Shown here piece by piece: positions 2,822 through 57,839 of a stretch of 64,000 nt of DNA. Both the position numbers and the translations under genes were made by a program. The stretch lies in assembly GCF_031755915.1 (NCBI RefSeq), contig NC_083387.1, positions 19,179,001-19,243,000 on the forward strand, in the 5' to 3' direction. Origin of the DNA: Ziziphus jujuba. Lineage: Eukaryota > Streptophyta > Magnoliopsida > Rosales > Rhamnaceae. Each line of letters starts with the position of its first letter. The first letter of the stretch is position 1. Under the pieces are notes generated by a model, which saw only the letters and a list, made by a program, of their open reading frames with translations, was not told the origin of the DNA and made no database searches.

Positions 2822-2822
2822 T

Positions 2823-16499: not shown

Positions 16500-17689
16500 T
16501 AAGAACATCCATTTTTTATTTTTTTTAAATTTCTTTGTTGTGTTCTTCTTTCACTCCAATGAAGTGCATGCTCCACTCCACTAAGTGCAAAAAGTGTAAT
16601 TTTTCGCATGAGGCATATGCTTTTTTGCAAAGGGATGACACTTTTCTTGTACCATGCCTTAAGATCGGCACCTTAAGGCATTATTGACCACTTCGCCATA
16701 AAGCGTGCCCGAAGCTATACCCTAGAAATGCTTCTTAAAATAATTATTTTAAGCTTATTTGGAACCATAATTCTCCATAAACCTTTCACGAACTCATAGC
16801 ATGATCATCACTAGAGCTTCCCAAATTTGCACCACAAACAAACCCAAAAGCCCACCTGCTACCCAAATTTAACAATATAAATGCCATTGTCATTAAAGCT
16901 CCAAACAAGTAAATCATCATGATCAAATCCAGCAAATTGAATATTCAAATTGCTATAGCTCCATCTAATGCAAAGCAAAAATAAACTATCATTCTAAACT
17001 CCACTATGAAATATTAAATTAGTCACACAAAGATCAAAATTAACAATGGGAGAAAAAATTAATTTTCGTGCATTACTTCATGATAAACCCAAATGCGTTT
17101 ACCATTGCCCACTTGCCAAATACAATCTTTTTTCTATATGTCATGACCAAAATGACATTATTCCAAAGTTGAGAAATTTTTGCTCCTTTAACTGAATTCA
17201 AAAAAGGACAATGTGATGGTGTTTAGCCTTCAACAATTTACTTGCTAAACTACTTCAATTTTTAATTAAATGCCAACATTGTTTACCAAGTAAAGCAAAA
17301 ATAAACCTTTTATAGATCCAAATCCTATACCAACTTAAGCTTTAGCCTACGTTTAAAAGTCCAATTTCTCCAATGAACTTCTCTTGAATTAGAAGAATGG
17401 CTCCACCAAAACCATGCCTTCAAGCTATGAATACTACGAACAAGAGTCTCTAGCAAATGAAAACAACCCACAGTATTAGTTGGAATAGCTTAAATAATAG
17501 CTTTTAGTAAAACCTCTTTACTGGCCGTAGAGTGTAATTTTGATTTAATCCTAACAATTTTACAACAACTTATTCCCTCAAAACTTGGAAAAGTTTTGGT
17601 TTATTTTTTCCTATCAAGACAAATAAGCTCAAGAATTTATTATGTCCCTCCACTGCTTGAATATCAAAAAAATTACCAACCATCTCCCA
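16500..17689 (-). pseudogene. 3' half of an L1-like LINE ORF2
   Basis: Minus-strand translation gives the last part of a plant LINE reverse transcriptase. The segments are FFDIQAVEGHNKFLSLFVLI, then GKNKPKLFQVLRE; HSTASKEVLLKAII, a stop, AIPTNTVGCFHLLET; and QVGNGKRIWVYHE. The zinc-binding RT end follows with GLWRIMVPNKLKI and LCKKAYASCEKLHFLH. The protein would nick target DNA and prime cDNA there. Frames change repeatedly. The right edge is sharp: at 17690 the Tekay-like LTR L3 begins. The missing first half resumes at 43808. The left edge and any poly(A) tail are uncertain. Confidence 0.8.
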
Positions 17690-19264
17690 TGTAATATCCC
17701 ATCCCAAAAAATGCACAAAATTTTGAAACTGTTGTTGAGTTTGACTAACTGGACTGTTTGTAGGTCCTAGGTTTGATTTTTTACATTGTCAATGTTTTAG
17801 TTTGACCGATAAACCATTACATAGAGCATGTGGAAATGAATTTATAAACTAGCGACATGCCAAATTTCGAGTTACAATTGAAAAGTATTATTCTGAGAAG
17901 TTTCAAGTATCAGTTTTATATTAGTGTCCAAACAACTTCCAAATTTTTGTCTGTTAATGACACCTAGCCTTATATATACAGGGGAACCATGCCTTCATTA
18001 AAACAATAGTAAAAATACCCAAAAAGGTCCCCAAAATACCTGCAAACCCATGTGACATGTCAACCGACCCGCTATCCATTTCCTTCACAAACCAGGTCAC
18101 CATCGATTGACTTCCTTTTGCCTACTACTACAAGCATCTGACCATCGACAAAACCCACCTCCAGGCGACCAAGATGGCAAGTTTTCTAACCAAATGGCTA
18201 GCCGATTCACCAAGATCGACAGTTTGAAGCAGGTGGAGGCTATTTGCCATTTTCCAAGAGGTTAGCCATTTTTCAGCTGTTCTTGCTTAACCCATTTGTC
18301 AAAGTCATCATGGTTTGAGAGATCCATCAACATCAAATTTGATCGAGCTTTTTGATGAGTTTTTCAACCATTGACAATATTTTTGGACCAAGGTGAGCTT
18401 AGATTCTTGTTACCTGTTCCTCAAGCTTTCCATTAATATAAAAGTTATAAATTTTGGACATCATTTGATAATTTTTTTATTTTTATATTAATTAGTTAAA
18501 TATGGGTTAAATTGAACTATATTTGGATAAATATTTAACAAATTGGACAAAGTTGAAGTTGGATTTATGTAATTAAATATTAATAACCCATTGAAAAATT
18601 CAATTTCATAAAATTGACCTTCGAGAAAAAACTCCAATTTTTAGTATAAGGTCTTAAGGGTTCGAGGTATAATTGAACCACTTAATGCCCAATTTATGTA
18701 ATTGTATGGACGTACTATGATAGCTCATCTCAAAATACACCAGAATTTCTCGCGCATTGACCAAGTTGATTAGAGTTTACCGAAGTTGACCAAGTGGATC
18801 TTGTGGTTGACTTTTTGCTGTGAATAAAATTGTAACACCCCGTCCCGAAGTACACCGGAATTTTCTCAAATTTGATCGAGGTTGACCATTGACCGTTGAC
18901 TTTGACTGTTGACCAAAGGGGTCAAAAGTTGACTTTTTGACTCGGATGAAATTTTAGGTTGACTAAGGTACCGTTACGAAGTACACATTGGCACGAGTTC
19001 GTAGACTAGTAGCATGTCGAAAACGGAGCTACAGTTTGAAAGTTATGGGCAAAACAAGTCGAGATTCAAATTGTCCAAAAGGTGCCGGGAGTTGACTTTT
19101 ATGGTTGTAGAATTTTGCTTTGAATTTTGTATGGTTGTAGAGTGCTCGTCGATACAAGTTCATAGACTAGCGGCACACTTAAATTGGACATCTGGTTAAA
19201 AAGTTATGGACATGTGAAGTTTTCCGACTACCGTAATATTTTAATATTTTTGAATCAATAAACA

Positions 19265-19790
19265 GTGAAATGTCACGTGTCGACGTCTGAGAGGTCCACG
19301 TGGGTGAACAGTGTCACCCACGGTGGCTTTTATTTTGGCAAAACAATGGGGGAAGGAGAGAGAAGGAGAGAGAGGAGAGAGAGAGCTAGAGAGAGAAACA
19401 ACCGGCCACCACCGGTTGGCCACCGTCCGGCCACCGGAGGGCCACACGCGCCGGCCAGGCAGGAGCGCCTCTCCATTTCCAACCGGCCACCCAAATTTCA
19501 TGGCCAACCGGCTGGTAACGCGTCGGGATCGGAGTGTTTTCCAGCAACGGCGATTTTTCCCCTCCACCACCGGCCACCGCCGTTTGACCCATTTCCGGCC
19601 ATTTTCAAGCCACCCCTCACCACCTCCTCATTTCCGGCCAGCCGACCAAATTTCACGGCCACGGGACCTCCGACGCGCCGGGATCGGAGTATTTTCCGGC
19701 GAGGGGCCGAAAATCTTCAAACCTAGATCTCTTCGCCGTCCAGCCTCCATTTACCTCACCGCTGGTTCCGTTGAAACCCTCTCCCCTTGA
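19265..19790 (+). other. GC-rich leader with sense reading frames inside LTR L1
   Basis: A GC-rich block holds overlapping open frames of 153 codons (19265-19726) and 159 codons (19311-19790), rich in Arg and Pro. The first frame has NSVTHGG, then KFHGQPAG and a PLHHRPP segment. The LTRs of the complete element carry NSVTQG, KFHGERPP and PLHRRPP in the same order and sense. This may be real coding or only shared GC-rich nucleotide sequence. No domain is recognised and no function is proposed. Confidence 0.3.
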
Positions 19791-20213
19791 TCTACAAAAC
19801 CCCCAAAAATCTCGGCCATCAGCCACCGGACGCGCCGCCGCCGGTGCTGTTAGCGGTGACTGCGGCGGCTCGCCGGAAATCACTATTTCAGCGAGTACCC
19901 AGTTGCACCGCCGGTCCCTCTCCACTAATTCCGACCCCCTGAATCCAAATCCGGGGTCCTTTTCCTCCAATTCACGACGGTTTGAGAGGATCGAAGAGTT
20001 GAATCCGGAAAGCTTTCCAGCAAGATTCCGGCCACCACCGGTCCGATCTTCGGGAAGTAAGACCGGATTTGTAATCCTCGTCGCTCAAGCTTCGATTCGG
20101 TATATTACTCGTCAATTTCGGTTAACATTTGTGTTTAACCCCCCCGGGTACCGGATATTATTTATCCGAATAAAATATTAATTTATTTGAGTTGTGTAAT
20201 ATTGTTATTTTAG

Positions 20214-20274
20214 GAGCACGGATGCGTCGTGGAATTAATCCCATGGAGGATCTTGGTTTAATGGCGTGCTCCAG
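20214..20274 (+). promoter_or_regulatory. Possible leader exon/stem-loop in LTR L1
   Basis: A short segment lies between an acceptor-like TTATTTTAG (ending 20213) and a strong donor-like CAGGTGAGT (cut after 20274). Its ends are complementary: GAGCACG at 20214-20220 and CGTGCTC at 20265-20271. In the complete element the same place reads GTGCACGT and ACGTGCAC, so pairing is kept although the bases differ. This suggests a folded leader RNA, splicing signals, or both. RNA data are lacking. Confidence 0.4.
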
Positions 20275-21189
20275 GTGAGTGACCCACCTTCAAATTAAAT
20301 TTGTGAATATTTTGTGTGAATTGAATATTTGAAATTGATATTTTATGTGCCAAATATTTAGTGGTTTTATTTATGAAAATTTGATGCCCAATTGAGTGAA
20401 TCAAAATATTTATATTAAGAAAAAAAGTATTTTGATTCAAAGAATTTTATGAAATTGAATTGAAATTATTAATTATTAAATTAATTTGTTGGAATATTTC
20501 ATAATTGAATATTTCCAAAATATGTTTATGTGTTCGATATCATGACAATTTCTATCTAGAATGGTATTGCTAATTCATAATGTTTTTAATATACGTTTTG
20601 GTGCCAAAAGAATATATTTGGAAATTTAAAGAAATTGTGGTTGATTTATTGTAATTATTGCTATGGTTATTAGTTTTAAAAATTGTTTTGGGGTATAACA
20701 TAATATATATGTGTTCGAATAATTTGGCTTATATACCATTTGATTGAATGTTTGGATTATGCATATAAAAATATTTGCCTTATTAAATATGAGTTGTCAT
20801 TTTACGTAAGGTTCGACAATGTATTAAATAGTTTTATATTCTAATGGGTTCATAAGTGAACTTAGAGTAGTTAAATATTTTGGTATTTAAATTGAGATTT
20901 TAAATCATTTTGGAAACTATTTGGTTTGAGAAACCAAATTGAAACTCATATAATTTTAAGCATGATCAAATATTTTATATTTTTATGTGCTTAAAATTGG
21001 TTTATGGTGAATATATTTTACTGTAGTAGTTCTAGTTTTTGTATGAATGATATTTTGAGATTTTGAAATATTTGAACAAGCGGTTGAACTTGACAATTAA
21101 ATTATGATTATGATATAGTAGGATACTGTATCGGTTATTTTAATCGATGTACCATATAGTACCAGAGTTTGGTTCAGTATTATATTACA

Positions 21190-21445
21190 GCGTGCTGGGT
21201 TTACCACGGTGCTTTGAGGTTGGTTTCATCCAACGGTTATCTATTATTACCACGGACTATGAGGTCGGGTTCATCCGACGGTTTTAGTATTATTACCACG
21301 GTGCCGTGAGGTTGGTATCATCCAACGGTTTATTATTGCCACGAACTGTGAGGTTGGGTGCATCCCGACGGTTTATTTATTATTATTCCCACGATACCAT
21401 TCATATATTGAGGGTCATGAGGTGCGTGTATCCCACGGTTTACAG
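21190..21445 (+). repeat. Minisatellite inside LTR L1
   Basis: About five imperfect units of 45-60 bp share TTACCACGG ... GTGAGGTTGGGTTCATCC and GACGGTT. Related but different tandem blocks occupy the matching place in other LTRs of the family, at about 42790-42940, 52420-52560 and 28225-28395. Confidence 0.7.
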
Positions 21446-22634
21446 ATTGGTACGTCGAATGGTACATTGTATATGTTGTATTTAACGTTGTTTTTACTAA
21501 TTATTTCAATTGGAAAACTCAATACAAATTTTATGGAATTTTATTATGTTTTTGATTCCTTATTTATATTAGTGTTTTAACAGTGCATTTCATCTTGATT
21601 TTTTTTTTCTATTTATATTGGTTTGGTGATTTTTAAAAGATCTTACTATTTTTTACCACTTATCTTAAATGGAGGTTTTAAATTAACTAAATTTTTTCCT
21701 TTACTTAATTCTTCAAGAAATTGATTTATTTCATTATAAATTCTGAATGCTTGAATTATTACATTTTATTTGATATTTAGTTGAATAATTGACTCCTTGG
21801 TTTTCGGGGAATATGAATAACGGGTTTTGTGAAAATATTTTAAAAGGGGAACTTTTCCAACCGAGAGAATCATAAGGGTTTTGAGAGAAATTATTATTTC
21901 CAATTAATTATTATTTATCTACGTAGTTATCACGGTATTATAATTGTCCAGTAGATAGGGTCACTCACTGAGATGATTAGCATCTCATATTTTTAAATTT
22001 CGTTTCCCTAGGTCCAGGTTGGGAGACGTTGATTGTCCGGGGCGAGCCCGACATCTCAGTTCATTGCCAAAAGTCCAAGAAGCATTTCTTCTCTTTTTCC
22101 TCTCCATATTGTATTGCTTCTTTATCTGACATTGTATTAATTCCACATTTATTTGTATAATGCTCTGTATACTGTATCGGACATTTATGTATTCATTATG
22201 CACTGAGTTACTGTTATTCATTTAGAGTGCTGTAAATTTGTGGAATCAATTGTAGTAATGTGGGAGGAATAAGGGGAAGATTTTAGAAGTGTGTTTTCAA
22301 TGCAGGAAATTTTTGGTTAGTCCTAGCCTTAAGGGAGGTGCTGCCGGATTTTTCGTTGGAAGGGTCGGTGGTATTTCCCTGGGATCAGGGCTTGTCTAGG
22401 GTTCCGGTGAGGAATTTTGGATGGGTCCTGACAAAAATTTTGTGTTGACTAAGGCATCACGGCAAAATACATGTTGACCCAAATTCATAGACTACTAGCA
22501 CACCGAAATGGAATATGGTTCAAAAGTTATGAACGAAACAAGTTATAGTTCGGACTGATCAAGTGATATCAAGTTTGACTTTTTATTTTTATGGATTCTA
22601 GTTTTGATTTGTATATAATTGTAACATGCTCGTT

Positions 22635-23743
22635 TGATGCGAATCCGTCCGTGCCTGCACAACCGACAACCCACTAAGTTGCTGACCCGATATGGATGAA
22701 GACCAAGCTAATCACTAGGGCTCAAGTTAAGAGGTTTAGGGACAACATTTCTGCCTTTATTCAGGGGGTAATTCATTCTCAAGACCACTTGTCTATACCC
22801 GAAGATCCGAGACATGTTTTGGACATACAAGTGGTGGAAGCCGATACGGACCCAGGTAGCGGTTTTGGTGCATTTATGGAATCAGGGCAGCAAGAAATGG
22901 TTTCAACTCTTTATGGATTCATTAAATATCATAATAGGTCATGGAAAAAAGTTAAGGCAGAAGTAAAACCAACTTGTACGAACAGCTTCAAAATTTGGCC
23001 GAAAATTGCTGTATTGCTTGCTGGCTTTACTGTATTTTGCTGAGTTGGCTTTTTCTCTTTCCTCCAAGCAAGGGCAACTCATGGGACTCCATAATAATCC
23101 TATTTGGCATCCTAAAAAGCATATAGAAGCTGATTTGGAGCTCAAATTGGTCAAAATTTTATCAAAGTCAACTTCGTCAAAAAGCTAGTATTTTAGTTTC
23201 CTTATTTGATCTACTTTTTGTTTTAGTAAATTACCATTACTTTTTTTTTATTTGCTGGACAAATAAGTTTAGGAAAGTTATTATTTTATTATTTTCATTG
23301 TAAATTAATTAATTTCTAATTTAAAATAAGAAAATTAATTAATCCAAATTAGATTAGGAAAGGGTGTAAAATTAGGCAATTTCCTAATTAGATTCTATGT
23401 TGGCCGAAATTTTCTAATCCTTTTAGGGTTTTATTTTATTCCTTCAAATTCTATTTAAAGGCTTATTTTCAATTAGAAATCAAGCTTGAATTTTATATAG
23501 AAAATTATTTATGAGATTGAACTCTCTTTGTTCTTTTGAGCACCTAAAACACCATCAGTGAATGAGTGTTTTAGTTTGACTTATCAATAGGCCTTCCATT
23601 ACCTATTGTGGTGTCTTCATTATATACCAAGGTTTCTAATCACAGGTTGGTTAGGGGTCAAGGTAACCATTAGAACTTAAACATAATTAGATCCGAGCTA
23701 ATACAATACAGGTTTAGGTGCAGGTCATCCTAGATTCGTATCA
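22635..23743 (+). mobile_element. CRM-like solo LTR nested in L2
   Basis: This 1,109-bp unit starts TGATGCGAATCC and ends GATTCGTATCA, matching the LTR at 8362-9488 end to end. It is flanked by TCGTT (22630-22634) and TCATT (23744-23748), a duplication with one CpG-type transition. It encodes the integrase extension only (LITRAQVKRFRDNISAFIQG, then SIPEDPRHVLDIQVVEADTD at 22696-23043). That is expected of an LTR that overlaps pol. It is therefore a solo LTR, not a truncated gene. Confidence 0.85.
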
Positions 23744-24026
23744 TCATTGATATGAATTCATAAACTAGTGGCACACTTAATTTGAACTTATGTTTGAAAA
23801 TTCATGGACCTATAAAATTTAATTAATTTTTTTCCGAGATTGGCTTTATCAAGTATAATTTAACACATATGAAAAACGTATGCACAGTGCCCCCATCAAC
23901 ATGCACCACATGTCATGGCATCACGAGAGGCATTTATTGACCCATGTGGAGGAAAGGAAGAAGAGAGAAAAAGTAGAGAGAAAGGAGTGAGAGAGAGCAA
24001 AAAAAATGACCATCCCTAGTTCGCCA

Positions 24027-25030
24027 TGATGGAATTTGGTGTAGATTTATGTTGTTGTACCCTAGAGCACAATCATTCAAGGTGTTAGTCAAGAATGATT
24101 GTTGTTGGTTCTTGGTTCTTGATTTTGTTTTTTTGGGTTCGTTAAGGTTTTGTTTCTGGTTTTAATGGAGGTTTAGGGTTCTTGAGAAGGTTGTTAGCTT
24201 TTGGGAAGAAGAAGAAAACAAATGTAGTAATAGAGAGAGAGAGAGAGAGAGAGAGCCAAAAATGTTGTTTTTCAAAATTTTTTGAATATTGCTTCCTCAA
24301 CATTTTCATTACAATTTTCATACCTTTAAATACATCAAAAAGACAATAAGACATGCTACCATATTGAGCAATAAATACAAAAGCATTAAAAGTAACCAAC
24401 CAAGCCAAACTACCTCAACTAACTCTAATCAATGTGCTAGGCATGCAAGAAACCTTCTTTAATAGGCAGTTCAGCTTGTCTAAGGCATTTGAATTTGAAA
24501 ACCAGCTCCATTTGACTTGAAAATTGGAGGGAAGCCTTTTTGAATATTAAAATATGTTCTAGCCAAAAATCAGATAACAAAAAGTCCATTTACCCATTCA
24601 AAAATAATCAAACCCAAGGCAATTTTGTCCAGATTTCTGGGTAACAAAACTGCACAAGGGTCAGATTGTTTAGGGCTTAACTCAGCCTTCCCAGCTCCAA
24701 ATTGGGCCATTCTTTTTGCTGCTTCTTCCTCTGCTATTTCTAGTTTATTATATCCAATATTCAGATCCAAATCCCAAACCTTCTTCAAACGGCATCCAAG
24801 GAAGTGGACTTATGTTGCTGGAAATACAATTCCAGCAACTAGACAAAAAGGCCCTAAGCTTTAGTTAATTGAGCTTAGGGCATTACAAAAAGGATATTGT
24901 TCTTAAACATTACAAGATAAAATAAAATGCATAAACATAAATAATGTTTGGTCTTTGATGTTGCAAAATAAAGAGTGCAACTGTAACCGAACTACCTTGC
25001 ACATTGTGGCAAGATCACCACATTTCAACA
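24027..25030 (-). mobile_element. Solo LTR of the 1-kb family, copy S2
   Basis: This unit is exactly 1,004 bp and is a reverse-complement relative of 10512-11515. On the + strand it starts TGATGGAATTTGG and ends CATTTCAACA. Perfect CGCCA repeats flank it (24022-24026 and 25031-25035). A GA microsatellite (24234-24255) is expanded compared with copy S1. It lies in the GC-rich leader of L2, whose sequence continues on both sides. Confidence 0.9.
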
Positions 25031-25920
25031 CGCCATTCTCTAGCGACCAGCGTTGTGCCCTCGGACCTATCGACTGGCCAATTTTCACCACGAACAAGCC
25101 CGTGGTGTGCCAAGATCGGAGTGATATATGGTGGTGGTGACATTTGCTTTGCCAGTGAATTTCTCTCTCTCCGGCCACCCCTTTATCTCATTGCCACCAC
25201 CATTGAAACACCCACCAAAGTTAACGACTGATAGCCATTGGACGTGCTGGCACCAGAGTAATTATTCGATGATAGCGGTGGCTTACTTGTTGTCTTGGTT
25301 CTGGTGAGTTTCCAACCAAACCACCACCTTTTTCCACCTAATTTGACCATCCTGAGTTCAACCTGAGGTCCAATTTGCCCAATTCTAACTAAATCATGAG
25401 ATTCAAGGACATTAAGTAGCCCAGGTCTTCCCGGCCACCGCCGATCAAATCTCCAATAGATAAAACTCGATCCACAATCCTTGTGTTGTAAGCTTTAATT
25501 TGGTGTATATATATATATATTGCCAAATTTAGTTAAAGTTAAGATAACATTTTAAATTGATAAACTATGTGTAAAATACACGATTAAAATATTGTCATAA
25601 TGGGTGTTGTGTTCTGTTGATATTTTAGGCACCAATGTGAATTAAGGAACTGACCCTGTGGGGGATCCTGAGTTATCCGCATTTCAAGATGAGTGGTCTA
25701 CTTTCCAAATGTATTTTCTGGATATTTAAATTTGTGTTATGTAATTATTTAAATTTCTATAAATTTGTGGAATGTTTTTAAATTAAAGAAAATATTTATT
25801 AATTGTGTTATGAAAAATATTATTGTTTTTATACTTAATTTTGTATAAATATATATTATGGGTTTGAAGAAAATATTCATAATAAAATACTTCCACACAA
25901 AAATATATGTGTGTACTTAC

Positions 25921-26040
<120 letters not shown>

Positions 26041-28169
26041 GGTGTCTCTATGTGTGTATTTGTGTTTATTGTGGAAAGAAATGTTTTTATAAAATTTTGT
26101 GTATTCAAAATTAAAGAAATTTTATGGGTTTAGAAAAATGTATTAAAACTTGGTATTAATTTGTAAAAATTTGTTGTATGTTATATTGCCAATTTTTATT
26201 GTTTTAGATGCACTATACAGTACCGGTGTTTTATACTATATATTGTTGATTAGCATGCAGATATTATTTAGTTATCCTTTAGAAGCTAAAAGCAAGAGAG
26301 TTGACAGGTATTTTGTATAGTGAGCATCAGCCACCCCCTCCTCCTTTAACCACAAAATGGTAGGTTATTAACATCGATGCCTTAGGATGTTAAGGTATCT
26401 TATTACAGGTGTCTTTCTTATCCCCCTGTTAGAGTGGTGTTTGGGACATCAAGTACCGCCTGACACCATTTGTTAATAGTGTGGTGCATCAAGTTAATTC
26501 CTGGTACGTGTTTTAACAGAAAAATGTTTTAAAAATATATTTTTGTTTTACTTTAATTATTTATTGAAATTATGTTTTTAAATTATTAAAATTGCTATTT
26601 TATAAGCTATTAAAAATTGTTGAATTTAATTTTATCGTATTATATTATTTATTTTATTTTGATTTAATTTATTGAATGTCTATTTGTCTCATGTGAATTT
26701 TAATTGTAGTTTGTCTTAAATTAATATTTGTTTATAAAATTATTTCTAATGTCATTTTAATTTAATTTTATTTATATTTTTATTTACTACTTTAATTTTC
26801 GGGGAGTGTAAAGATTATGGGTTTTGTGAAAATAATTTTAAAAAGCGGACCTTTCAAACTTAATGAAATTGTGAGAGTTTTAAGAGAAAACCTTTATTTC
26901 TAAAAAAAATTTAATATATTAAATTATAAATTTCTAATTTATTTATGTATTTTTTTCATTAATTGTCATTATTTTTATAATAATATATTTTAGGACTTAG
27001 TTTGGTACCACTCACTGGGAATATTAGCATCTCATTTTTTTTTTTTTCAAATTTGTTTCCCTAGGCCTAAATGTTTAGTAGATATTGACCATCCAGTGTG
27101 AACTTGATGTTTTTTCATCTATTACTGTGTCTGGAGAAGAATATTCTTCCTTTTTTCTCCTCGTAATATTTCTATTATTCCTGTTGTACTTGTTTTAATT
27201 ATGTTCTCAAATTCAATCTTAGTATATGCTCTGAATACTACTGCTGTTGGATTATAAATTATTAATTTTTATGCATGTTTCCTTTGTTATTTATTTTTGG
27301 AGTGCTGCCCCTTATGGAATAGATTTTGTAATGAAGTGGGAGGAATAAAGTAATATATTATTGAAATGTATTTTTTGTGTAGGGATTTCTGGGTCAAATC
27401 CTACCTTTAAGAAGATGCTGTCGAATTTTCTATAGAAATATCTAGTGGGGTTTCTTCTAATTGAGGCTAGCATAGGGTTTTGATAGCGAATCATGTGAGA
27501 GTCCTAACATGTATAAATTATTTTTAAGACATTTTGTACACATAAATGTCTTTGGTTTAGTTGTTGAAGCTTAAGGATTACTTTATTATAGTACAGACTC
27601 TCGTACTGCATCTGGAGTGAGCTTTAAAAATACTTGAAAGTAGTTATATTTTTTTAATAGTCTTGGGCATGCTATTATAATATATATGTGGTTTGGATAT
27701 TTTATATATATATGGTTTGATCTAACTTTTATTTTATGCATATACGAATATTGGTTTTCACATATATATGTTATCATGTCATGTGACTTTTAATAAGATT
27801 TTTTATTAGGACCCATCCAAGATTCCTTATCGGAACTCTAGACAAGCCTTGACTGTGGAAACTCTACCGGACTTTCCACCAAAAAATCTGATAGTATCTC
27901 CCCTAAAAGTGGGACATGCCCCAAAATTTCTTGCACAAAAAACTCAATTTAACAAAGCACGATCTTGTTCCTTCCACTTTACTACAATAGATTTCCACAG
28001 TAGGAACCACTTCAATAACAAAAGCATAAGAATACAAACACAGAAAATAATTTAATAAACAGTAAATGCCTTTATAACTCATGTCTCCCACACCACCCGT
28101 TTAGTACAGTCTTACATTTCTAAACAACTTCACGAGCACACCAAACATATAAATATAGATAGAAAGATA

Positions 28170-28850
28170 ATAAAACAAGCAATAATGACAACAACAACAA
28201 TAATAATAATAATAGTATAACCTCTTAAGAAAATCGGATAACCTACCTAAAAGCTACGTTACCTACTCGAAGGCTATCATACTTGTCCTATGGCTACTGT
28301 ACCTGTCCGAAAACAACACAATATATGCCTTAAAGCTACCATAATTACCATAAGGCTACCATACTTGTTCGAAAGCTATCATACTTGCCACAAAAATGAT
28401 AATCATACAATTGACAACAACAACAACAACAACAACAATAATAACAATAATAGTAATGATAATAATAACAATAACGAATAATAATAGTAACAATGATAAA
28501 TAATAAATCATAGTAATAATAATACCAATTAATAATAATAATAATAAATAATAACAACAACAATAGTAGTAGTAGTAGTAGTGGTAGTAGTAGTAATAAT
28601 ATTAATGAATACAATAACAATTTACAATAGTAACAATAACAATAATAAATGATAATAATAATAACTACTAATTATAATATAATAAATAATAATACCAAAT
28701 AATAATGATAATAATAATAAAAAACAAATAATAATAACAATAATAATAACACCAAATAATAATGATAATAATAATAAAAAACCAAATAATAATAACAATA
28801 ATAATAATAATAATAATAATAATAGAAAATCATAATCATAAATAAATAAA
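28170..28850 (+). repeat. AAC/AAT microsatellite field in L4
   Basis: Long runs of AAC, AAT and TAG triplets occur with interruptions, including a near-duplicated AATAATAATAACACC block around 28700-28800. Earlier, at 28225-28395, a minisatellite of CTACC...AAGGCTATC units corresponds to the variable block of other family LTRs. Nothing here is coding. Confidence 0.8.
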
Positions 28851-29825
28851 ATATACTACATAACCCACAAATACACTACATAACACGCAAACTTGTAGTT
28901 GAGATACACTCGATGTACCATATAGTACTCTAATGCACGGTTTTATGATATCAACCACCAATTTGGCCAAAAGTGGTTGCCTATAATGGTCATCGACCTC
29001 GTTGGTCTTGTAGGCAGCAGAAATAGGAGATTAGGTTGTTTACGAGCCAAATCAGATCATTGCCTCCCTATGGTGTGGTACACACTAACATACATATATA
29101 TATACATATACATCGAAACAACACCTGATGCACAATATGATACACCAGTGCTGCTAAGTGATTGCTTGGCGCTCTAAACACCACTTTACGAATAGGGGAG
29201 GGAAAAAGAACTTTACATGGCCCCATTAGCATCCTAATGGTTCCGATGCTAAATAACATGCCATCTTATGGCCAAGGAAGGGTGGCTAATACTCACTAGG
29301 CAAAATACCTACTAACCCTCTCACCTTTAACTCCCATAGGAATGGCTAAATCAGTCGTCCTTTGGCCGAGCGGATGATAGTTAATGTTATCACCTCAAAA
29401 TACTTATCTATCCTCTCTCACCACAGCTCATAAAAGACGACCATATATATATATAACCTGCATGCTGATTTATAGACATAATAGTATAGAGCACCAGTAC
29501 TGTATGGTGCATTTACAAACTAAGTAGTCACATAAAATAAATGTGTAAAATATATATACATATAGTTACCAAAAAAAGCCACTCCTCATAATTGTACTTT
29601 TATAAATAAATAAATATATAAATAAATACATAAGTAAATAAGAGTAAATGAATGAATTAACTGCATAATTAAGTGAGCAAATTGATAAACAAAACCTTAT
29701 TTTATTCTTAGTGCAACATAAGCATCTAATCCTTTGTTGAAATTTTATAAAAATACTTAGTGGGCGACAATTGGTTAACTGACTCCTTTAAATCCAGCTT
29801 TTAATAATAACAAATTAAATGAAAA

Positions 29826-29831
29826 ATATAC

Positions 29832-29868
<37 letters not shown>

Positions 29869-30125
29869 CATACAATCATTTAACAAATACACTTTATATA
29901 TATATATATATAACAAATATATAAAAGTATATAACAAATATATATATAATAGATATACATAAAAGTATATATGTATATATATATATAGATATAACAAGGT
30001 ATATATAAATATCTATATAACAAGGTATATAACAAATATATTCATAAGAGTATAGAATAAATATACTTATATTTATATTTATATATATATATATATATAT
30101 ATAAATTTAATTACACTCACATACT

Positions 30126-30156
<31 letters not shown>

Positions 30157-30157
30157 G

Positions 30158-30197
<40 letters not shown>

Positions 30198-30247
30198 AAT
30201 ATACAATTCCTTAACAAATGTATTATATATATATATATATACTCACC
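29826..30247 (+). repeat. AT and CA dinucleotide repeats in L4 at the insertion site
   Basis: TA runs (for example 29837-29862 and 30080-30102) and a CA run (30128-30188) precede the complete element. Matching TA/CA-rich sequence continues after it at 41069-41245, showing that the element inserted into a microsatellite-rich part of L4. Confidence 0.85.
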
Positions 30248-30251
30248 TACA

Positions 30252-33262: not shown

Positions 33263-33280
33263 GCCTTCCCCCCTTACAAA
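33263..33280 (-). other. Polypurine tract of the Tekay-like element
   Basis: On the minus strand GTAAGGGGGGAAGGC stands directly before the LTR start TGTAACACC. It is the expected plus-strand primer site, and it begins a few tens of bases after the polyprotein stop. Confidence 0.85.
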
Positions 33281-33306
33281 AATTTCGTCCTCGAAATTTC
33301 CGCACG

Positions 33307-36300: not shown

Positions 36301-37752
36301 CTTGGCGGTAAGGGTAGATATCAACCTCGGTAAGGGCCTTCCAACTCCTCCACGGAATACTACTTCTGGCAACCCTGGCCTCCTGAATGTAACTTCCTTG
36401 CTGAAACAGTCTACAGATGCATGGTTCCTTGCCAACCAATCCATGCCCAAAATTACATCAAGTCCGGACAGATCCAACAGGATCAAGTCCGCCTCCATCA
36501 CTTGATCTTCGATGCAGAAGAAACATTCCTTGATTAACTGGCTAGGCCACAAGGATTCTCCTGCAGGAGTGGCTATCTCTACTAGACATTCTAAAGGAGT
36601 AGGGGTCATACCGACCCGAGTGACGAATTCCTTGGAGATGAATGAATGTGTTGCTCCCGGGTCTATAAGTACTAATGCATCATTACCAAATATATTCAAC
36701 GTACCTGCCACGACGTCCGGTGTAGCTAGGGCCTCCTGCTGCGTCATCGCAAACACTCGACCCTGCCCTGTCTGCTGGGGCCTCCGTCCTCTACCCCTGC
36801 TCGGTCCAACAGGCTGTGGGACTGATCCCGATGAACCTCCTACTGCATAACTCCCTCGGGAACTCTGACCCCGCGACCCACTGGCCTGATGTGATGGTGG
36901 GCTCGCCCCTAACACTCCCGCCTCTCCATAAGGGCAATTTCTCTTAATATGTCCCGCCTGCCCACACTGAAAGCACACACCCTCAAACTGGCAAATCCCA
37001 TGGTGTGCTCTATTGCAACGTCTGCAGAATGGCTTGGGGCTAAACCCAGAGTGCTGATATGAGCTCGTGCCGCCGCTGATGGAATGGCGCGCTGGTTGGG
37101 GCATACGATAGCCGCCTCTCCTCTGAAATCTGCCTCGAGGGCTGAACCCACCACTGTCTGAGCCTGAACTATGACTCTTCTTAGATGCCCCCTGTCGAGG
37201 TACCCCGCTATACGAACCTTCGAACGGTCTGCGCCTCGAGGGTCTGTGTATCTCCGCCTGTCTCTCTAGCTCGAGCGCTGCATCCCTGGCGGACTGATAG
37301 GTGGGGTGTACTGACCCAGAAAGGGTGTAGCCGATGCTCTCGTTCAACCCGTCTATGAACCTCACCTTCTTCGCGTGATCGTCGGGAATCAAGTGCATGC
37401 AGAACTCTGACAGCTCCCGGAACCTCCTCTCGTACTCTGTCACCGTCATGTTTCCCTGGCGCAGTCCCTCGAACTCTCTCCTTCTCGCCTCACGGTAGGC
37501 AGGAGGACAGAACTCAGTAGAGAAGGCAATCTTGAACTGGTCCCACGTATGCCTTCTGCGGGTCTTCTCCATTTGCCACCACTTCCGGGCGTCTCCCTCT
37601 AACATGAACCCAGAAATCCTCACCATATCCTCATCGGGGCACTGCATCCCCTCTTCCAAGATTTTCTCCATGCTGGATAGCCACTTCAAGGCTGCAGCTG
37701 GGCCTTGGCTTCCATCGAACTCCACGGCTCCTAAACGTCGAGCCTGATCCAC
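33307..37752 (-). CDS. Gag-pol-chromodomain polyprotein of the Tekay-like element
   Basis: One open frame of 1,481 codons. Approximate positions counted from 37752: gag core 20-160 ([17 protein letters not shown]); CCHC knuckle 258-272 ([14 protein letters not shown]); protease near 362 ([15 protein letters not shown] in place of DSG/DTG); RT with FIDDIL near 697; RNase H (YCDASHQG) near 844; integrase zinc finger near 1069 and acids D (NMDFV, 1130), D (VSDRD, 1189) and E (GQAES, 1225); chromodomain 1425-1481 ([19 protein letters not shown]). The natural start is probably the ATG at 37879-37881 (MSRRDTRRTRERS). In that case a TGA at 37822-37824, codon 20, interrupts this copy. All catalytic motifs appear intact. 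Confidence 0.93.
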
Positions 37753-38009
37753 GTATCGGTTACTAGAGCTTGAACCTCCTAAGGCTCTAGTTAGCTGAGA
37801 GACCAGATCTCTAAGGCTTGATCAACTCCCGGAACTCTCAGCCGAGCGTTCCCGAGTTCTACGTGTGTCCCGCCGACTCATCGTAGTCGATTACTGAAGA
37901 AACAAACAAGAGTTTAGAAACAGGGACACTTAAGCACGATTACAAAAGGAAGGAATTTACGGATGGGCTGTACAGCAATGCACAGTCCCTTAGGATTACA
38001 AGAACCTAT

Positions 38010-38021
38010 GCTCTGATACCA
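38010..38021 (-). other. Primer binding site (initiator Met tRNA), Tekay-like element
   Basis: On the minus strand TGGTATCAGAGC follows the 5' LTR after two bases. This is an exact 12-base match to the classical plant initiator-Met-tRNA primer site. Confidence 0.92.
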
Positions 38022-38023
38022 AC

Positions 38024-41000
38024 TGTTAGGACCCGTCCAAAGTTCCCCACCGGAACCCTAGACAAGCCCTGATCCCAGGGAAACCCTACCGGACCCTTCT
38101 GTGGAAGATCCGGCAGAACCTCCCCTAAGGGATGGACTTACCACAAAATTTCCTGCACGGAAAACACACTTCTATAATTGTTCCCTTATTCCTCCCACAG
38201 TACTACGAACTGGTTCCACAAATTGCAGCACTCCAAAATAAAAATACAGTAATCCAGTGCAATACAAATACATAAGTGTCCCATACAGTATACAGAGCTT
38301 TATGAAGTACTACAAAATACAGAATACAGCAAAAGTGAAAGAAATATTACAACTGCAGTAAAAGAAGAACAAGGTACTGCACGAACAAATACAGCGAGGA
38401 AGATCGAGTCCGCTCCGAGTGAACACCGACAACCTGGTACCTAGAGGAACGGAATTTAAGAGTGTGAGATGCTAATCATCTCAGTGAGCGACCCTACTAC
38501 TCTACACTATCATACCACGGTAATAGGTATATAAATAATAATTATTTGGAAATAATAATGTCTCTCAAAACCCTTACAATTCTCTCAGTTGGAAAGGTTC
38601 CCCTTTTAAAACATTTTCACAAAACCCTTTATTCATATTTCCCGAAAACCAAGACATCAATTAAATACCAGAACAGTAATATTATATTTTTAATTCCAAT
38701 ACAGTTTCCAAACATTTTATTTTTAAAACACAGTTCTGAAAATCATTTGATGCACCCACTATATACCAGTGGCGCCAACAGTACCCAGCGTCCCAAGGTA
38801 CCGCCAGACAGGAGGTTATAGAAAGAAACCGGCATACGGTCGCGTGGCGTCCCACTGCGCCGCTGCTAACCTGGTGTCCCGGCCAAAGGGGGGTGGCCGC
38901 CCTCTCCGATGGCATCCACAGGACACCCTCATAATATCAACCGCGCGCTACTCACACCCACCTGCGCGCTAATCACAACCGTGTGCACACTAACCATATC
39001 ACATATACCATATCACATAATCAGAACACCAGTACGTGCACGGTGCATCTAAAAATTATAAAATCCATAAATTTAAATCATAAAACAAATTTCACATTTT
39101 TCATAAGCATAGCGGGCATAATCCATCCGCTCGAACCGGGAAATTCTCCACAATTTCCTTATAATCCATACCATAAATTCCATTATTTTCAAATCCACCA
39201 ACTCCCAAATCCATCAATTCAAATATCCACATTTTTTTTTTCCAAGCATAAATAATTTCTCGAAATATCATAATCAAATCCCATAATATTTTATGGGCAT
39301 ATTTCATAAAAATTGAAATCACCAACATAACCAAATATTTTCCTTGAAATATTTGAAAATCAAATCGTGCCCAATTTACCATTAAAACCACACCAATTTC
39401 AAAATCCTCAAAACCATAAAATAATTCCACACGGCATAAATTTGTAGAATTCGCATTTTCTTAAATCCAATAAATTCATAAATAATTCTACAATAAATCC
39501 AATAAATATTTGGCACATAGAAATTAAATTCCAAATATTTAATTCACACATAATATATTCATCAATTAAATTCCCCAAAATTAATTTGAAGGTGGGTCAC
39601 TCACCTTGTGCACGTATCTCAATCACGATCCTCCGCAGGATCGACTCCGCTACTTGCACGTGCACCTAAAACATCCACAGTACCAAAACCACAAATATTA
39701 ATATTTTATTCGGGTAATCCCCAAATGGGTACCCGGGGAGCGAACACCAAACGATAACTAAAATTTACGAATTATATACCGAATCGAAGCTCGAGTGATG
39801 CTAATCACAGATCCGGTCTTAATTTCCGATGATCGTACCCGACGGGGTCGGAATTTTATCGGGAAGCTTTTCGGGTTTCGGCTCCGCAATTCTCCCAAAC
39901 CGTCGCGAATTGGTGGAAACGGAAGTCGGATTTGGGTTCAGGAGGTCGAACACTGCGGACTGGAGCTGGCCGGAATTTTTGGGGTACTCGCCGGAACAGT
40001 ACTTTCCGGCGGGCCGCCACGTCACCGGCAACCGTTGCCGGAACAGTAATTTCCGACGGTGGCCGTTTGCTGTGAAATTTTGCAGATTTGTAGATCGTGA
40101 GGAGAGCAATCCAACGGGACCGACGGTGAGCAAAACGGAGGTCGGACGGCGGAGAAATCACCGTTTGAAGATTTTCGACCCCTCGCCGGAAAACGCTCCG
40201 ATCCCGGCGCGTCGGTGGTCCGATGGTCGTGATTTTTGGTGGGTAGGCCGGACTTGAGGAGAGGATCAAGGCTGTCAGGCGCGTGTGGCCGGAAAATGGC
40301 CGGAACAGTGCCGATTCGCGGTGGCCGGCGGTGGAGGGGAAAAATCGCCGCCAAACTTCGGACGTCCGATCCGGGCGCGTCCGGCGGCCGTTCGCCGTGA
40401 AATTTGGAGGTTTTGCCGGAAATGAGGTGGGCAATCTGGCTGGCCGGCGCGTGTACAGTAACTAGGCCGGAAAAACGTGAAAATGACCGGCGGCCGGCGG
40501 GTCCTCTTTCTCTCTTTCTCTCTCCTCTCTCTCTTTCTCTCTCTTCTCTCTCTTTCTCTCTCTTCCCCGAGAGTTTTTCAAAATTAAAACCCTGCGTGAC
40601 ACTGTTCATGCCACGTGGACCACTCAGAAGCTGACACGTGGCATTTCACTGTTCACGACCCAAAAACATTAAAATAATACGGTATCCGGTAAACTTCAAA
40701 CGTCCATAACTTTTTAACCGGATGTCCGATTTAAGCGTGCCGCTAGTCTATGAACTCGTATCGACGAGTACTTTACAACCATACAAGAGTCAACTCACAA
40801 TTACATCACAAGAAAAAGTCAACTCCCGGCACCTTTTAGACAGTTTACACTTCAACTTGTTTTGCCCATAACTTTCAAACCGTAGCTCCGTTTTCGACGT
40901 GCTACTAGTCTACGAACTCAGGGCGTCATGCACTTCGCCACGGTACCCTGGTCAACTCGAAATTCCCACCGAGTCAAAAAGTCAACTTTGACCCCTTCGG

Positions 41001-41068
41001 TCAACGGTCAACGGTCAACCTCGGTCAACGTGCATGGATTCCGGTGCGATTCGGGACGGGGTGTTACA
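38024..41068 (-). repeat. 5' LTR of the Tekay-like element
   Basis: On the + strand it reads TGTTAGGACCCGTCC ... GGGGTGTTACA, 3,045 bp. It is nearly identical to the 3' LTR. The extra 47 bp lies between two copies of CCGGAACAGTA near 39990-40045. The stem-loop arms are at 39608-39615 and 39658-39665. As the upstream LTR it should hold the promoter for element RNA, though no TATA box was assigned. Confidence 0.93.
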
Positions 41069-41212
41069 TACATGTATATTTATATGTATATATACACACA
41101 CAAAATCTCTCAACAAATATATATATATATATATATCCATATACTCACAATATATGTATACACTTACACCGATATATACGCATAATATATTTATTTACAA
41201 ACATACATACAT

Positions 41213-41243
<31 letters not shown>

Positions 41244-43807
41244 AACATATATATTTACAATTTGACAAAATTTTCACATTAAACACAAAAATTTACTCAA
41301 AAATGAAAAGTTTCCAAATATACCACCATAATTCACAAATAAAGTACCAATGGAAAGCTATGAGGATGAGGAACACATAACTAAACTCCATTTAGTTCAA
41401 CATCGTTGATGGTGGTCGGAATTTCCATCGGAAGCCGCTGCCAAACTCAACCTCTTTGTACGCCAGAAACGAGCTCAAATTGAGCTAAATGGAGGTCACC
41501 ATTAGCTTTGGGAGGTCATAATTAGGGAGAAAGTATAGAAACTTGACTGGAAATGGCTAGAATCTGGTGATTGGACGGTAAGGTCATTGTCAGCTTCCAT
41601 AGCCATTTTCCAACTATGCTTGACCGTACTGGTGAACAGGAACCGCAACGAGGTCACCAGCATGATGAGTAGTCTGTTGATGGTGGCGGTGAGAAGTGGG
41701 TCTACCAAAATCATGATGATTTCCCCATGAAGGTTGCTGCCATGCAAGGTGGGGAGAAGACTGAGCCCCTCTTTGTTAGGCCGGAGAAGAAGAAGAGGGA
41801 AAAGAAAAGATAAATAAAAAAAATAAAAGAATAAAAAGAAGAAAAGAAGAAAAACAAAAAAGAAAAGGACATGTGGCCAAGTCCAATTGCAACACATGCC
41901 ACGTGTTAAACGGTGACATGTGGCACCAGTTAAATTTATTTTTAAACACTACCTTTTTCACTATTATATAAAAACTACCTCAAAAAACTAGTAAAAGTAA
42001 AACAATTATAAACTTTGCAGACCCATATCTTTCAAATTAAGCATACTACTTGTTTACGGATTCATATCGACAAGCATTATCACATGGTACATAAATCAAA
42101 ATCAAAATCTCCAAAACTAAAAAATCAACCTCAGGATCACCGATTAGTCTGGACCGCCTATTGTTATAATCATAACTTTCTAGTCTTAGCTCCAATTTTG
42201 GCGTACCACTGTACTTTGCCACAATGCCTCAGGCAAAGAGAAATTCCTCTTGAAGTAGAAAGTCAACCATGGGATCCACTTGGTCAATCTTGATCAATCT
42301 TGGTCAAACTAATAAAAAATTCAAATTCGAAGTGTTTTCTCAAGTCATGGTGTTACATTTTTAATGGTTTCAAATTCTAATGAATTCATAATGAACTTGT
42401 GAATATTGGTATTAAAATATTTTGGTAATTAAATCGATATTTTAGCTCTTTCGAAAAATAATTGATTTTGAAAAAAGGGATTAAAAATTATATATTTTTA
42501 AGCATATTTAAATGTTTTATATTTTTTTATTGCTTAAAAATAGTTTATGGTGATATATATTTCACTATCGTATTTACATTTTGGTATGAAATGATGATTT
42601 AAAATTTTTGAAATATTTAAATAAATGGTTGGATTTGAATATTAAATTATACATTATGGTATAGTATTGTTTGGAAAAGTATATTCTTACGAAGATTGTT
42701 TTATGAGTATTGTACTATTATATTTAATTGGTATACCATATAACAATAGAGCTTCTGTTCAGTATTATATTATTGCGTGCAGTTTGCTTAGATTTTTGTG
42801 GCATGCTAAAAGTCATGAGGTGGGTTCATCATACAGGTTTGTACACTAAAGGTCGTGAAATGGGTTTATCCCACAGGTTTGTATTACTACCTTTAAGACA
42901 CTAAGAGTTATGAGATGGATTCATCCCACAGGTTCCATTTATATTATTGCCCGATGGTGTTCCAAGGCGCTGTACACCACTTGACAACGCAAGGTGTATC
43001 TCATGGTACATTGTTTATGTTTCTAAGTGTATTGTTGGTTTTTTGCTAATTATGGTTTTGATGCATTTTCATAATTATTTTGTGAAATTATGTTTATATT
43101 ATTTTATCCTCAATATTTATATTATGATTGAGCCTGTTTACAATATTTTGAATGGACATTAATTTGTAATATTTAAGCATCAATTTTATGATATTGATTT
43201 GGGTACAAGTTTGGATTTGTGAAATGATTTTTAAATGAGAAAACTTTCAAATGAGTAGAACAAAAAGTCTTAACAGAAAGATATACACAAATAAAATATT
43301 ATTTTTTTATCATACCATGTCATTCACTAAGATATATTTATCCCATATTTTATTTGTTTTTTGAAATTCGTTTCTTTAAATTCAGACAGTTAGATGACAG
43401 TTTACCTCATGCATTGCTTATTGTTCCATCTTTTTCACAGCAGCAATTTTTATCTTTTCCTATTCATCTTTATTTTCCTAGACTTATTCACATCAGTTGC
43501 AATACAAGATTTTATACATACTCTTAAAATGCTATCACCTAAATTGTAGACAAAGTAATAACCCTATTATGTATATGTAGAAATGGCATGTAGTATAATA
43601 GGCTATAACTATTGATGACAGTTGTGGATTGCATACTATTGTGGCTCTATCTTTATATATTGAGGTATTGTTTGATAATAGCATGTGTTTATTTATCCGT
43701 AGTTTAAGTGAGGTTTCATTGGGTATTCTCTAGGGATTGCCCAATGGAATTTTCCTAGGCAAGACCGCCCGAAAATCTTAGAAGAGTTCCCTGGACGAGT
43801 CTTGTCA

Positions 43808-46800
43808 TCCCGTACCTGAGGGGGAGTATTTGAACTAATACAAGTTATTGTTTTTTGCAATTTAGTTTCTCACCTGAAGCTTTTTCTTAAGAGCTCAAAA
43901 CCAGCTTAATGTTGCCTACATTCTTCAAATGTTGCCTTCCAAAAAAAAATATTATTATCTGCAAAAAATAAATGAGAAACTCATAGACTTCTATTGGAAA
44001 CTTGAATGTCGCTAATATGCCCCACCATTCTAGCTTTCTCTAATAAAGAAGATAAACCCTCAGCACATATAAAAAATAAATATAGGGAGAAATGATCACC
44101 TTGTCAAAGACCTCGCTTAGGTTTGAAGTCATAATGAATCTTTCAATTCATTACAATAATATATGTACTGAAGAAATGCATCTCAAAATGAAAGTAGTCC
44201 ACTTCTCATCAAAACCTATCTTCTAGATCATGGCTTTCTTAGAACCCCATTCGAGACTATCATAGGCTTTATTCATGTCCAATTTTAAAGCTAGCAAATT
44301 ACTCTCCCACTTTTTTGACAATCCAGCATATGCATAACCTCTAAAGCCACCATAACATTATACATGATTCGCCTAGCGAGCACTCTAATCCTCTAAGATG
44401 ACCAAAGGAAATAATCTTGTAGAAGATATTACAAAGGTTAATAAGACGAAATTCAGTAACTAGATATGGATTTTTTAACCTTTGGAAATAAAGCAATTAA
44501 AATGTGATTCAAATTACTCAAACCACCATCATCATTGAAAATTTCTGAAAAGGCATCGGTAACAAGACCACCAATGATTACCAATATTTTTGAAAAATAG
44601 TGTAGTACCATCACAACCCAGAGCTTTTGAAGGATTCATCTGAAACAAACTTGTACGAACTTTTTCTGCAGTAAAAGGTCGACACAATCTAGATTTCATT
44701 TCACCATTAACACGACCCTGAACCCTACAGAAAATATCCTTATTACTAACTGAACCATCAGACTTAAATAAATTAAAAAAATAATCTATAAAAATCTGAG
44801 GAATAAAATCTTCTCTTGATTCCCAATCCCCTCTTGAGTTAGTAATCCCCGGGATCTAATTCCCTCTCCTTCGCGCAGAAGTATGATTGTAAAGATTTTT
44901 TGTATTTCTATCACCATACTAGAGACAATTAATCTGTGACCTTTGATGCCACATATATTCCTCTGCTCTAACAAATGATTCAAATCCATTTCAGTATTCG
45001 TTTAAAGCTGCAAATTAATCTGATTTGGAGGCTGATTTTCAAAAGTATCTAACACATGATATTCTCCTTTATTTTCTGCTAAATAGTTATTGTTGATGTT
45101 TTACCTTCTCGAGCAAACTAAGAAATACACTTTTCCAGCTCGTTAAGAACCCTTTCCAAACTTGAACCCGATGAAACAATATCCCATATCACATGAACCA
45201 TCTTTTCATGTCCCTCTACATTCATCCATATAGCTTCAAGGTGAACCCGCCGCCGCCTAGATCGAGCATAAGTAAGTTTATCCGGAACATCGAGAAAGAA
45301 CAATAAACCCTAATGATATTTGAAATGGAATTAACCAAATGCTTAATCTTGGCAAACAGAAATAATAACTGCAACAGAAACCTTTATCAAGATGAACATT
45401 ATTCTCATCCTCCCTACGATTATTCCTAGTATAGCGATTGCCTAAAAAAGAAATAGCTTTTAAAGAACAACAATCAATATATCTCCAGATCTACCAATTC
45501 GATTATTGCATCTAACTTTACCTCCCAATTTTTTCATGTTGAGATAACACCCCATTAAAGTCGCCAAGTACACATCAACCCATCTAATTAATTTTAGCAA
45601 GTCTTAATAATTCCCATGAATGTTCGTGCTGAGATGTACCAGGATTATCATAGAAGCCACTAAAATGAAACACGCCATTTAAAGGGTGTTTTATAACTGC
45701 ATCAACGTGACCAGTAAAAGAAGAACAAATAGAGACATCCACACTATCTTTCCAAAATAAAACCAACCCCCACTGAAACCAATCTGATTAACTCCGTAAC
45801 AACTCCCCATTCTTATACGAACTCGAATTCTTTTATGTTGATGAACAAGCAGCCTAGTCTCCATAAAAATATTACATCATGATCTTCTTCTTTGAGCATA
45901 TTTAATAACGCTCTTAGTGTTCATGGGTTACCAATCCCACAAACATTCCAGCTCAAGATTTTCATTGCTCATGGTAGGGTTAAACAGCAGTCCCCACCAC
46001 GTTACCTTGAAGAGTATCCAATTCCTAACCTTGTAAACATTTACTACTAGATCCAAAGCATCACAAACAGAACATTTGCCTTTCCTTTGTTGTATTGCTG
46101 TTATTGCGATTTGCATGCACTCTTCTAGCAATCCTCTTCCATAACCTAAGCTGAAAATTAACTACTTTACCCTTTTGAACTTGTTCCACAGTATCCTCTA
46201 TCCTCAAAATAGGAGGTTTACATGCAGTAATTCTTCCTACATCCTTAACTTATGTAGAAGATCTTTTACCTGCTATCTAAAAACTTTCCTAACCTACCTT
46301 ATCACTGGATTTCTCTTGAAACCGCACCTCATCCATTCAATCTGAACCGGAATCTCATGATGATAATATACATCTAAATTCATAATATCCCGTTGTCCAT
46401 TCTCCAAATCTCCTTGACCATCAGTTATCACTGGACTTCTGAACTTTCCAAATTACAGGTAAAGATGTCATCCCTAGGAACTTGGTTTTCAACCTTTTTT
46501 GTTATGACTCTTTTGTTCCCTGAACCTGTACCTGTAGCCCGTTTGTGAGAACTTGAGTAGAATTAGTAATATAAACACCAGCTTGCATCCATGATCCATA
46601 ATGGAAATCCTAATTATCCCTTTCAAAATCACAATCTTTTTGAATGTGACCAAGTCTCCTACAAAGAAAATAAAAGTCAGGTACAGGTTCATAAGAAAAC
46701 TCAACCCAGTATTCCTCTTCTTCCAATTTAATTTTCAAACCCCTTCAAAGAGGTATAGAAACATCAATGAATACCCGCATATACTTACCAACACAGAGCT

Positions 46801-47420
46801 GTCCTCGTCATTAATCAATTGAAACCAGATAACCTAACTTCTTGCCAATTAAGGTTCCAACTTAACTAATTATTCCAAACAGCAGCAAATTGGAGATTCG
46901 AACCTAAACTAGAACTTTCTATAAGAAAACTTTATCCGGTGAAGTCTAATTGTCAACATCTTCGAATAAGACAATGGCTTTATCAAAGTACCATGGTGAG
47001 CCCGCCACGACCTTTTGTTTATCTAAGAAAAGTTGAAAATTGAAACAAAAATATATCATCCTGAATTTCAATGAAACCAACTGGACAGGATGTTTTCCAC
47101 AAAGAATTCATGGTATCAATAAAAGCAATCTTATTGTATTTGTTTTCTGTATAAACTTGGACGAACAAACAATTTCGAAAGTCGTTCTCCATCAATCCTC
47201 GATGAGTTGAATTAATAATTAAAGTGTCGCACTCTTCCTCTATTAACGTAATCGTCAACAGGGTCTCGATTTCCTCCATACGAAAAAAATCATTGAACAA
47301 ACCCGCCCTCCACGTTGAGAAATGGGAAGACAAAAACCTCGTGAAAAAAGACGAGGAGAAAAATCCTAACAGGGCTCTAAAAGCGCGCAGGGACTTTGAA
47401 TTGTTATAGACTATATGCAT
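43808..47420 (-). pseudogene. 5' half of the L1-like LINE (ORF1, endonuclease, RT N-half)
   Basis: Minus strand. ORF1 (about 47280 down to 46500) opens MEEIETLLTITLIEEECDTL and has a DUF4283-like region, then a damaged zinc knuckle (FYFLCRRLGHIQKDC). The endonuclease begins near 45980 (KILSWNVCGIGNP) and includes WKDSVDVSICSSFTGHVDA and HFSGFYDNPGTSQ. RT follows with WHQRSQINCL, then YGDRNTKNLYNH; SKALGCDGTTLFF; ALEVMHMLDCQKSGR; and the active-site box FFADNN where FADD is expected, near 43945. It stops at 43808, where LTR L3 ends. Many stops are present. Confidence 0.82.
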
Positions 47421-57640: not shown

Positions 57641-57839
57641 TGCATGATACGAAGTACCACTTTTGGATAAAGATTTTGGTCACTCACATACGCCACCTCT
57701 ATTCATTCCTTGAATGAGAGGTGGTCCCATGCAAAGACCCCTTACCTGAAATAAGAAGAAAAGAATTCAATGGATGTTTTATTGGACTGACAAAATTTAG
57801 AAATAGAAAGTAAATTATTTTGCATAGAAGGAACACAAA

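Follow-up and report, generated by a model that had tools for sequence, protein, structure and literature searches.

The window, i.e., the whole 64,000-nucleotide stretch of the Ziziphus jujuba contig NC_083387.1 that was analyzed here, contains two pieces of a LINE separated by 26,118 bp, which consist of the long LTR named L3 and its contents. A sequence-only reading had proposed that a 26-kb nest of LTR elements splits this LINE, and this was confirmed: both LINE pieces were found where they had been placed, and the ends of L3 fall exactly at the two LINE junctions, with TCCCA on the left and TCCCG on the right. Six of the seven LTR elements in the nest are single LTRs. The features are the following, with parts of one element given together.

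43808..47420, minus strand: LINE 5' part, with ORF1 (DUF4283, zf-CCHC_4) and the endonuclease and RT of ORF2 to just after the active-site region
about 16510..17689, minus strand: LINE 3' part, with the rest of the RT and downstream ORF2; a T-rich tract at 16512-16526 was taken by eye as the poly-A side
17690-43807, plus strand: L3, long single LTR splitting the LINE; TG at 17690 and CA at 43807; flanks TCCCA (17685-17689) and TCCCG (43808-43812); own sequence in parts a (17690-18715), b (27510-27803) and c (42358-43807), each of which counts one flank copy
18716-27509, plus strand: La, long single LTR inside L3; flanks CGTAC/TGTAT (two transitions); start decayed to TA
18831-22433, plus strand: Lb, 3603-bp single LTR inside La; flanks AAAAT/AAAAT
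22635-23743, plus strand: 1109-bp (1.1-kb) single LTR inside La; flanks TCGTT/TCATT; found by self-comparison
24027-25030, minus strand: 1004-bp (1.0-kb) single LTR inside La; flanks CGCCA/CGCCA
27804-42357, minus strand: Lc, long single LTR inside L3; own sequence 27804-30251 and 41069-42357; flanks TTTTT/TTTTT, of low complexity (T run); one end decayed to TA
30252-41068, minus strand: two-LTR Ty3/gypsy chromovirus-type element inside Lc (the complete element); 5' LTR 41068-38024 (3045 bp), 3' LTR 33262-30252 (3011 bp)
33310-37821, minus strand: gag-pol frame of the complete element, open for 1504 codons, with gag, zf-CCHC, protease, RT, RNase H, integrase and a sub-threshold chromodomain

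Plant L1-type LINEs are defined by an ORF1 with DUF4283 and zf-CCHC_4 and an ORF2 with endonuclease and RT. The right-hand piece has an ORF1 with DUF4283 and a CCHC knuckle, since both zf-CCHC_4 (PF14392; 33.1 bits, cut-off 27) and DUF4283 (PF14111; 31.3 bits, cut-off 27.2) were detected with Pfam in the same one of the two frames scanned. After ORF1, endonuclease and RT matches obtained by tblastn of ORF2 homologs run as far as the junction. The left-hand piece corresponds to ORF2 downstream of the break, with linked matches extending to about 16.72-16.73 kb; nearer to the end of this piece, matches were at chance level only. By these tblastn matches and the adjacency at the junction described below, the ORF2 endonuclease and RT belong to a single element across the insert. 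The ORF1 domains and the ORF2 homologs are those of plant L1-type LINEs, but this LINE is split by 26,118 bp and is decayed, the ORF2 of its right-hand piece showing many stops and frameshifts.

On the decayed ORF2 frames a Pfam scan by itself lacked the necessary power: with stops read as X, its only matches were RVT_1 at E 0.1 and one of chance level at E 0.21. The two pieces were therefore mapped on homologs. A protein search with one ORF2 frame of the right-hand piece, stops again read as X, gave 10 proteins, nine of them plant-named and one from a JGI source, and nine of the 10 carry a reverse-transcriptase domain. In a second search, which started from the 1091-aa JGI protein (P0005), a capped set of 7908 candidates was scored and the best 120 of 5275 matches were used. 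Pooling both lists yielded 129 distinct proteins, which were compared by tblastn with the two LINE pieces separately, keeping matches with E values of 1e-4 or better and discarding plus-strand matches.

All 129 homologs matched the right-hand piece and 121 matched the left-hand piece. In every one of these 121, the two deduced break points, one from each piece, lie no more than 5 residues apart (median difference -0.33 residue, range -3.3 to 0.7), and the matches are strictly ordered and non-overlapping in 120; the exception (P0029) counts against the explanation we favor, and since the homologs are mutually related, these counts are not independent trials. The best-scoring homologs differ between the two pieces. 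The junction itself was analyzed with translated stubs of 119 and 35 residues, whose frames were picked by inspection, against the 129 homologs. Both stubs scored above all 20 shuffles in 73 homologs, and in 70 of these they overlap by one codon, the first left-hand codon and the last complete right-hand codon falling on one and the same residue of the homolog. The offsets in the other three (0, 3, and -14) were counted against this explanation; without the score filter, the one-codon overlap occurs in 111 of the 129 homologs. Together with the two leftover right-hand bases, an overlap of one codon amounts to a 5-base duplication with the reading frame kept. The one-codon overlap seen in the stubs is what would be predicted with TCCCA/TCCCG as the target-site duplication of L3.

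The two LINE pieces might instead be separate copies, truncated independently, which flank the LTR cluster by coincidence. Both are badly decayed, and a target-site duplication around the whole LINE was not demonstrated, the best match being 7 bp long and equalled in 43 of 200 shuffles. But they lie on the same strand, they meet with codon precision on a shared set of homologs, and their overlap is that of the LTR target-site duplication, so that we regard a coincidence of this kind as scarcely credible. The sequence-only reading would have had to be given up if the pieces had mapped apart; their coordinates on the same homologs proved to be adjacent, apart from an overlap corresponding to one 5-bp duplication, with the frame kept. 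The reading in which both halves are parts of one decayed plant L1-type LINE holds, and it is on the adjacency that their probable membership of the same family rests.

The flanks of L3 are alike at four of five positions, and the lone difference is a transition at a CpG. When 400,000 random TG/CA pairs were drawn in the window, exactly four of five flank bases were alike in 2.1% and all five in 0.16%; for the inner insertions this comparison is no clean test because their boundaries were set with the flanks in view. All five flank bases match in Lb, Lc, and the 1.0-kb LTR, and four of five in the 1.1-kb LTR. The flanks are identical or differ only by transitions in six of the seven LTR elements, the exception being the complete element. 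TG...CA ends, a flank duplication and the lack of an internal region characterize L3, La, Lb, Lc, and the 1.1-kb and 1.0-kb LTRs; three of these six have identical flanks and three have flanks with transition-only differences, and in La and Lc one end has decayed to TA. Recombination between the two LTRs of an element should leave just such a pair of ends with matching flanks, and it is most simply the route by which these single LTRs would have arisen. Some of them could conceivably be fragments of truncated elements: the internal regions are missing, and La has no match to about 593-767 of Lb beside the 1.0-kb LTR. Since all six have both ends and flanks that are either identical or different by transitions only, truncation seems a very improbable origin.

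The relationship of L3 to the other long LTRs is clearest at its start. The 16 bases with which it begins, TGTAACACCCCGTCCC, occur at four sites with at most three mismatches, two of them on the plus strand (17690 and 18831) and two on the minus strand (starting at 33262 and 41068). For the initial 300 bases of L3, the alignments cover Lb 1-249 and La 1-304, and none of 200 shuffles was as good in either case; on the complete element's LTR these bases also beat 200 of 200 shuffles, but off-register, at 162-399. In alignments of whole pieces (20 shuffles each), part a did not rise above the shuffles on Lb (441 vs. 498), and on the complete element's LTR it passed (339 vs. 324) only at a non-collinear place. 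Part b was narrowly above the shuffles on Lb (316 vs. 289), where parts b and c abut at 1995/1992 across Lc. Two results count against this continuity: part b fails on the complete element's LTR (251 vs. 276), and there it overlaps part c (1523-1834 vs. 1479-3045).

The flanks of La match at three of five positions, which occurs in 10.7% of cases by chance and counts against La, so that its case rests on collinearity. On Lb, its four pieces correspond to 1-122, 119-319, 316-592, and 768-3603, each above 20 shuffles, and the breaks between them fall at the three insertions that La contains, namely Lb, the 1.1-kb LTR, and the 1.0-kb LTR. The order of the pieces is likewise collinear on the complete element's LTR. 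About 175 bases beside the 1.0-kb LTR (about 593-767 on Lb) are unmatched. Lb is 73.4% identical to the complete element's 5' LTR over an alignment of 1612 columns and 77.3% identical over one of 662 columns. At 25926-26029, also inside La, a (TG)n run is followed by a 41-base G homopolymer, a possible weak point of the assembly.

The label "CRM-like", given earlier to one of the 1-kb LTRs, was not confirmed; what the 1.1-kb LTR contains is a 121-aa frame with one chance-level Pfam match (E 0.061). By self-comparison, stretches related to this LTR were found at 563-1669 and 8362-9489. They form the related LTR-like ends of two degraded gypsy copies at 1-9490, in which tblastn of the protein P0171 located pol-like coding sequence at about 13-446 and 5809-6997, and Pfam RNase H matches lie at 6428-6988. 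A partial LTR end at 2630-2822 is followed by the primer-site-like sequence TGGTATCA. The 1.0-kb LTR has an inverted copy at 10512-11515, which is 92% identical and has flanks of its own (AAATC/AAATC); downstream of this copy are a copia-type gag (11533-11901) and an RVT_2 match (14038-14469). On the other side of the nest, a minus-strand frame at 57176-57679 has a copia-type RVT_2 match, and 59867-59974 consists of two perfect tandem copies of 54 bp. No host gene was seen among the 10 stop-free stretches scanned with Pfam, out of 35 of at least 110 aa in the window, and an Rfam search gave no matches at gathering scores.

The first 300 bases of Lc align to Lb 1-324 and to positions 1-317 of the complete element's 5' LTR, with none of 200 shuffles as good; on La they beat all 200 shuffles, and the match starts at 51/42. 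Longer alignments (20 shuffles each) were less uniform. On Lb, part 1 is not above the shuffles (577 vs. 650), whereas part 2, the 3' part, aligns to 1323-3603 (1526 vs. a shuffle maximum of 1361). On the complete element's LTR, part 1 narrowly exceeds the shuffles (473 vs. 432) and part 2 does not (806 vs. 855). On Lb the two parts do not abut but overlap (1-1594 and 1323-3603, sharing 1323-1594), which counts against Lc. Lc is identified by its ends and by the continuity of L3 across it, and its case for collinearity is weaker than that of La.

The element inside Lc has gag, protease, RT, RNase H, and integrase in this order between two LTRs, as in Ty3/gypsy chromoviruses, along with a weak chromodomain (PF00385; E 2.2e-4, 21.5 bits), which differs from theirs in falling below the Pfam cut-off of 25.1. 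The primer-site-like sequence TGGTATCAGAGC, which we take to be of the initiator-Met type, lies two bases after the 5' LTR, and a purine tract precedes the 3' LTR. The two LTRs differ at five of 2997 aligned sites and by gaps of 14, 1, and 47 columns. At substitution rates of 1.3e-8 and 7e-9, the resulting divergence (K2P 0.0017) corresponds to an insertion roughly 0.06-0.12 million years ago. Of 120 listed proteins, the one with the highest identity to the gag-pol frame (99%) is from Ziziphus jujuba; a Z. jujuba protein matches the frame from 37881 to 34975 with 99.3% identity over 969 aa. Since the open stretch starts at 37821 and this match at 37881, an in-frame stop lies inside the match, about 20 codons in, i.e., near the start of gag and just upstream of the open frame.

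In the chromovirus group the usual target-site duplication is 5 bp long. This element does not show one: its flanks, within 30247-30253 and 41069-41074, read CTACA/TACAT at 5 bp and TACA/TACA at 4 bp, even though the LTRs are nearly identical. The TACA match is extended by the LTR's own TG, and the site lies in AT/CA microsatellites. These 4-bp flanks also set the element apart from Ty3/gypsy chromoviruses, and because the 5-bp duplication is lacking we call it chromovirus-type and assign it to no named clade, although its LTRs of about 3 kb lead us to presume that it is Tekay/Del-like.

These flanks bear on another possible explanation, in which L3 did split the LINE but part of the nest, especially Lc and the complete element, was produced by rearrangement (ectopic recombination, inversion or an assembly error). 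The mismatch between CTACA and TACAT, the microsatellites around the complete element, the T run that serves as the duplication of Lc, and the overlap of the Lc parts on Lb could all be read in this way. TACA/TACA is nevertheless compatible with a 4-bp duplication, and parts b and c of L3, on either side of Lc, abut on Lb; we consider a contribution of rearrangement unlikely.

The order of the layers shown by the nesting is the LINE, then L3, then La and Lc; Lb, the 1.1-kb LTR and the 1.0-kb LTR followed in La, and the complete element in Lc. The description of the nest as four-level is correct if the LINE is taken as layer one. As regards the insertion order proposed by the sequence-only reading, the part between layers stands, on the boundaries, the collinearity of La and, less strongly, the continuity of L3 across Lc, while the order within a layer is not given by nesting. 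It is highly probable that the LINE was split by L3 and that successive nested insertions followed, most of which are now single LTRs. A long-LTR retrotransposon would have integrated into ORF2 of a plant L1-type LINE, splitting it, and would subsequently have been reduced to the single LTR L3, probably by recombination between its LTRs. L3 would then have taken in two relatives, La in its own orientation and Lc on the opposite strand, each of which is now a single LTR. La would have received a third relative, Lb, as well as two elements with LTRs of about 1 kb, all of which would since have been reduced to single LTRs, whereas Lc would have received the recent chromovirus-type gypsy element, which retains both LTRs.

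Nested LTR retrotransposons were reportedly described in maize by SanMiguel and colleagues. Like the nested LTR retrotransposons of plants, the present locus has younger elements inside older ones, an order that can be read from the nesting, and single LTRs; unlike them, its outermost disrupted element is a LINE, and six of its seven LTR elements are single. Such nesting is ordinary in plant genomes, and the locus is of an already known kind. In one report, 4126 pairs of nested and original LTR elements from fifteen plant species were compared, and both nested LTR elements and single LTRs appear there as routine in plant genomes (PMC7251063), because of which the biological surprise is small. 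The jujube centromeres are described as consisting mainly of gypsy LTR elements in another report (PMC12596083). Our literature search found no paper on this locus, which does not prove that there is none.

Below the first layer there are four long-LTR insertions (La, Lc, Lb, and the complete element), and each of them sits inside a relative of the same long-LTR lineage. The lineage may perhaps target chromatin that bears the marks of its older copies; nests would then be enlarged by self-insertion and reduced to single LTRs between one round and the next. We put this forward as a tentative and rather doubtful idea, limited by the fact that it concerns four insertions at one locus, and the landing in La of two LTRs for which no membership of the lineage was observed speaks against it. 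What the locus gives is one relative insertion history in a plant, in which the break in the LINE is placed to the codon, and its related long LTRs, nested in one another, constitute a lead on self-targeting.
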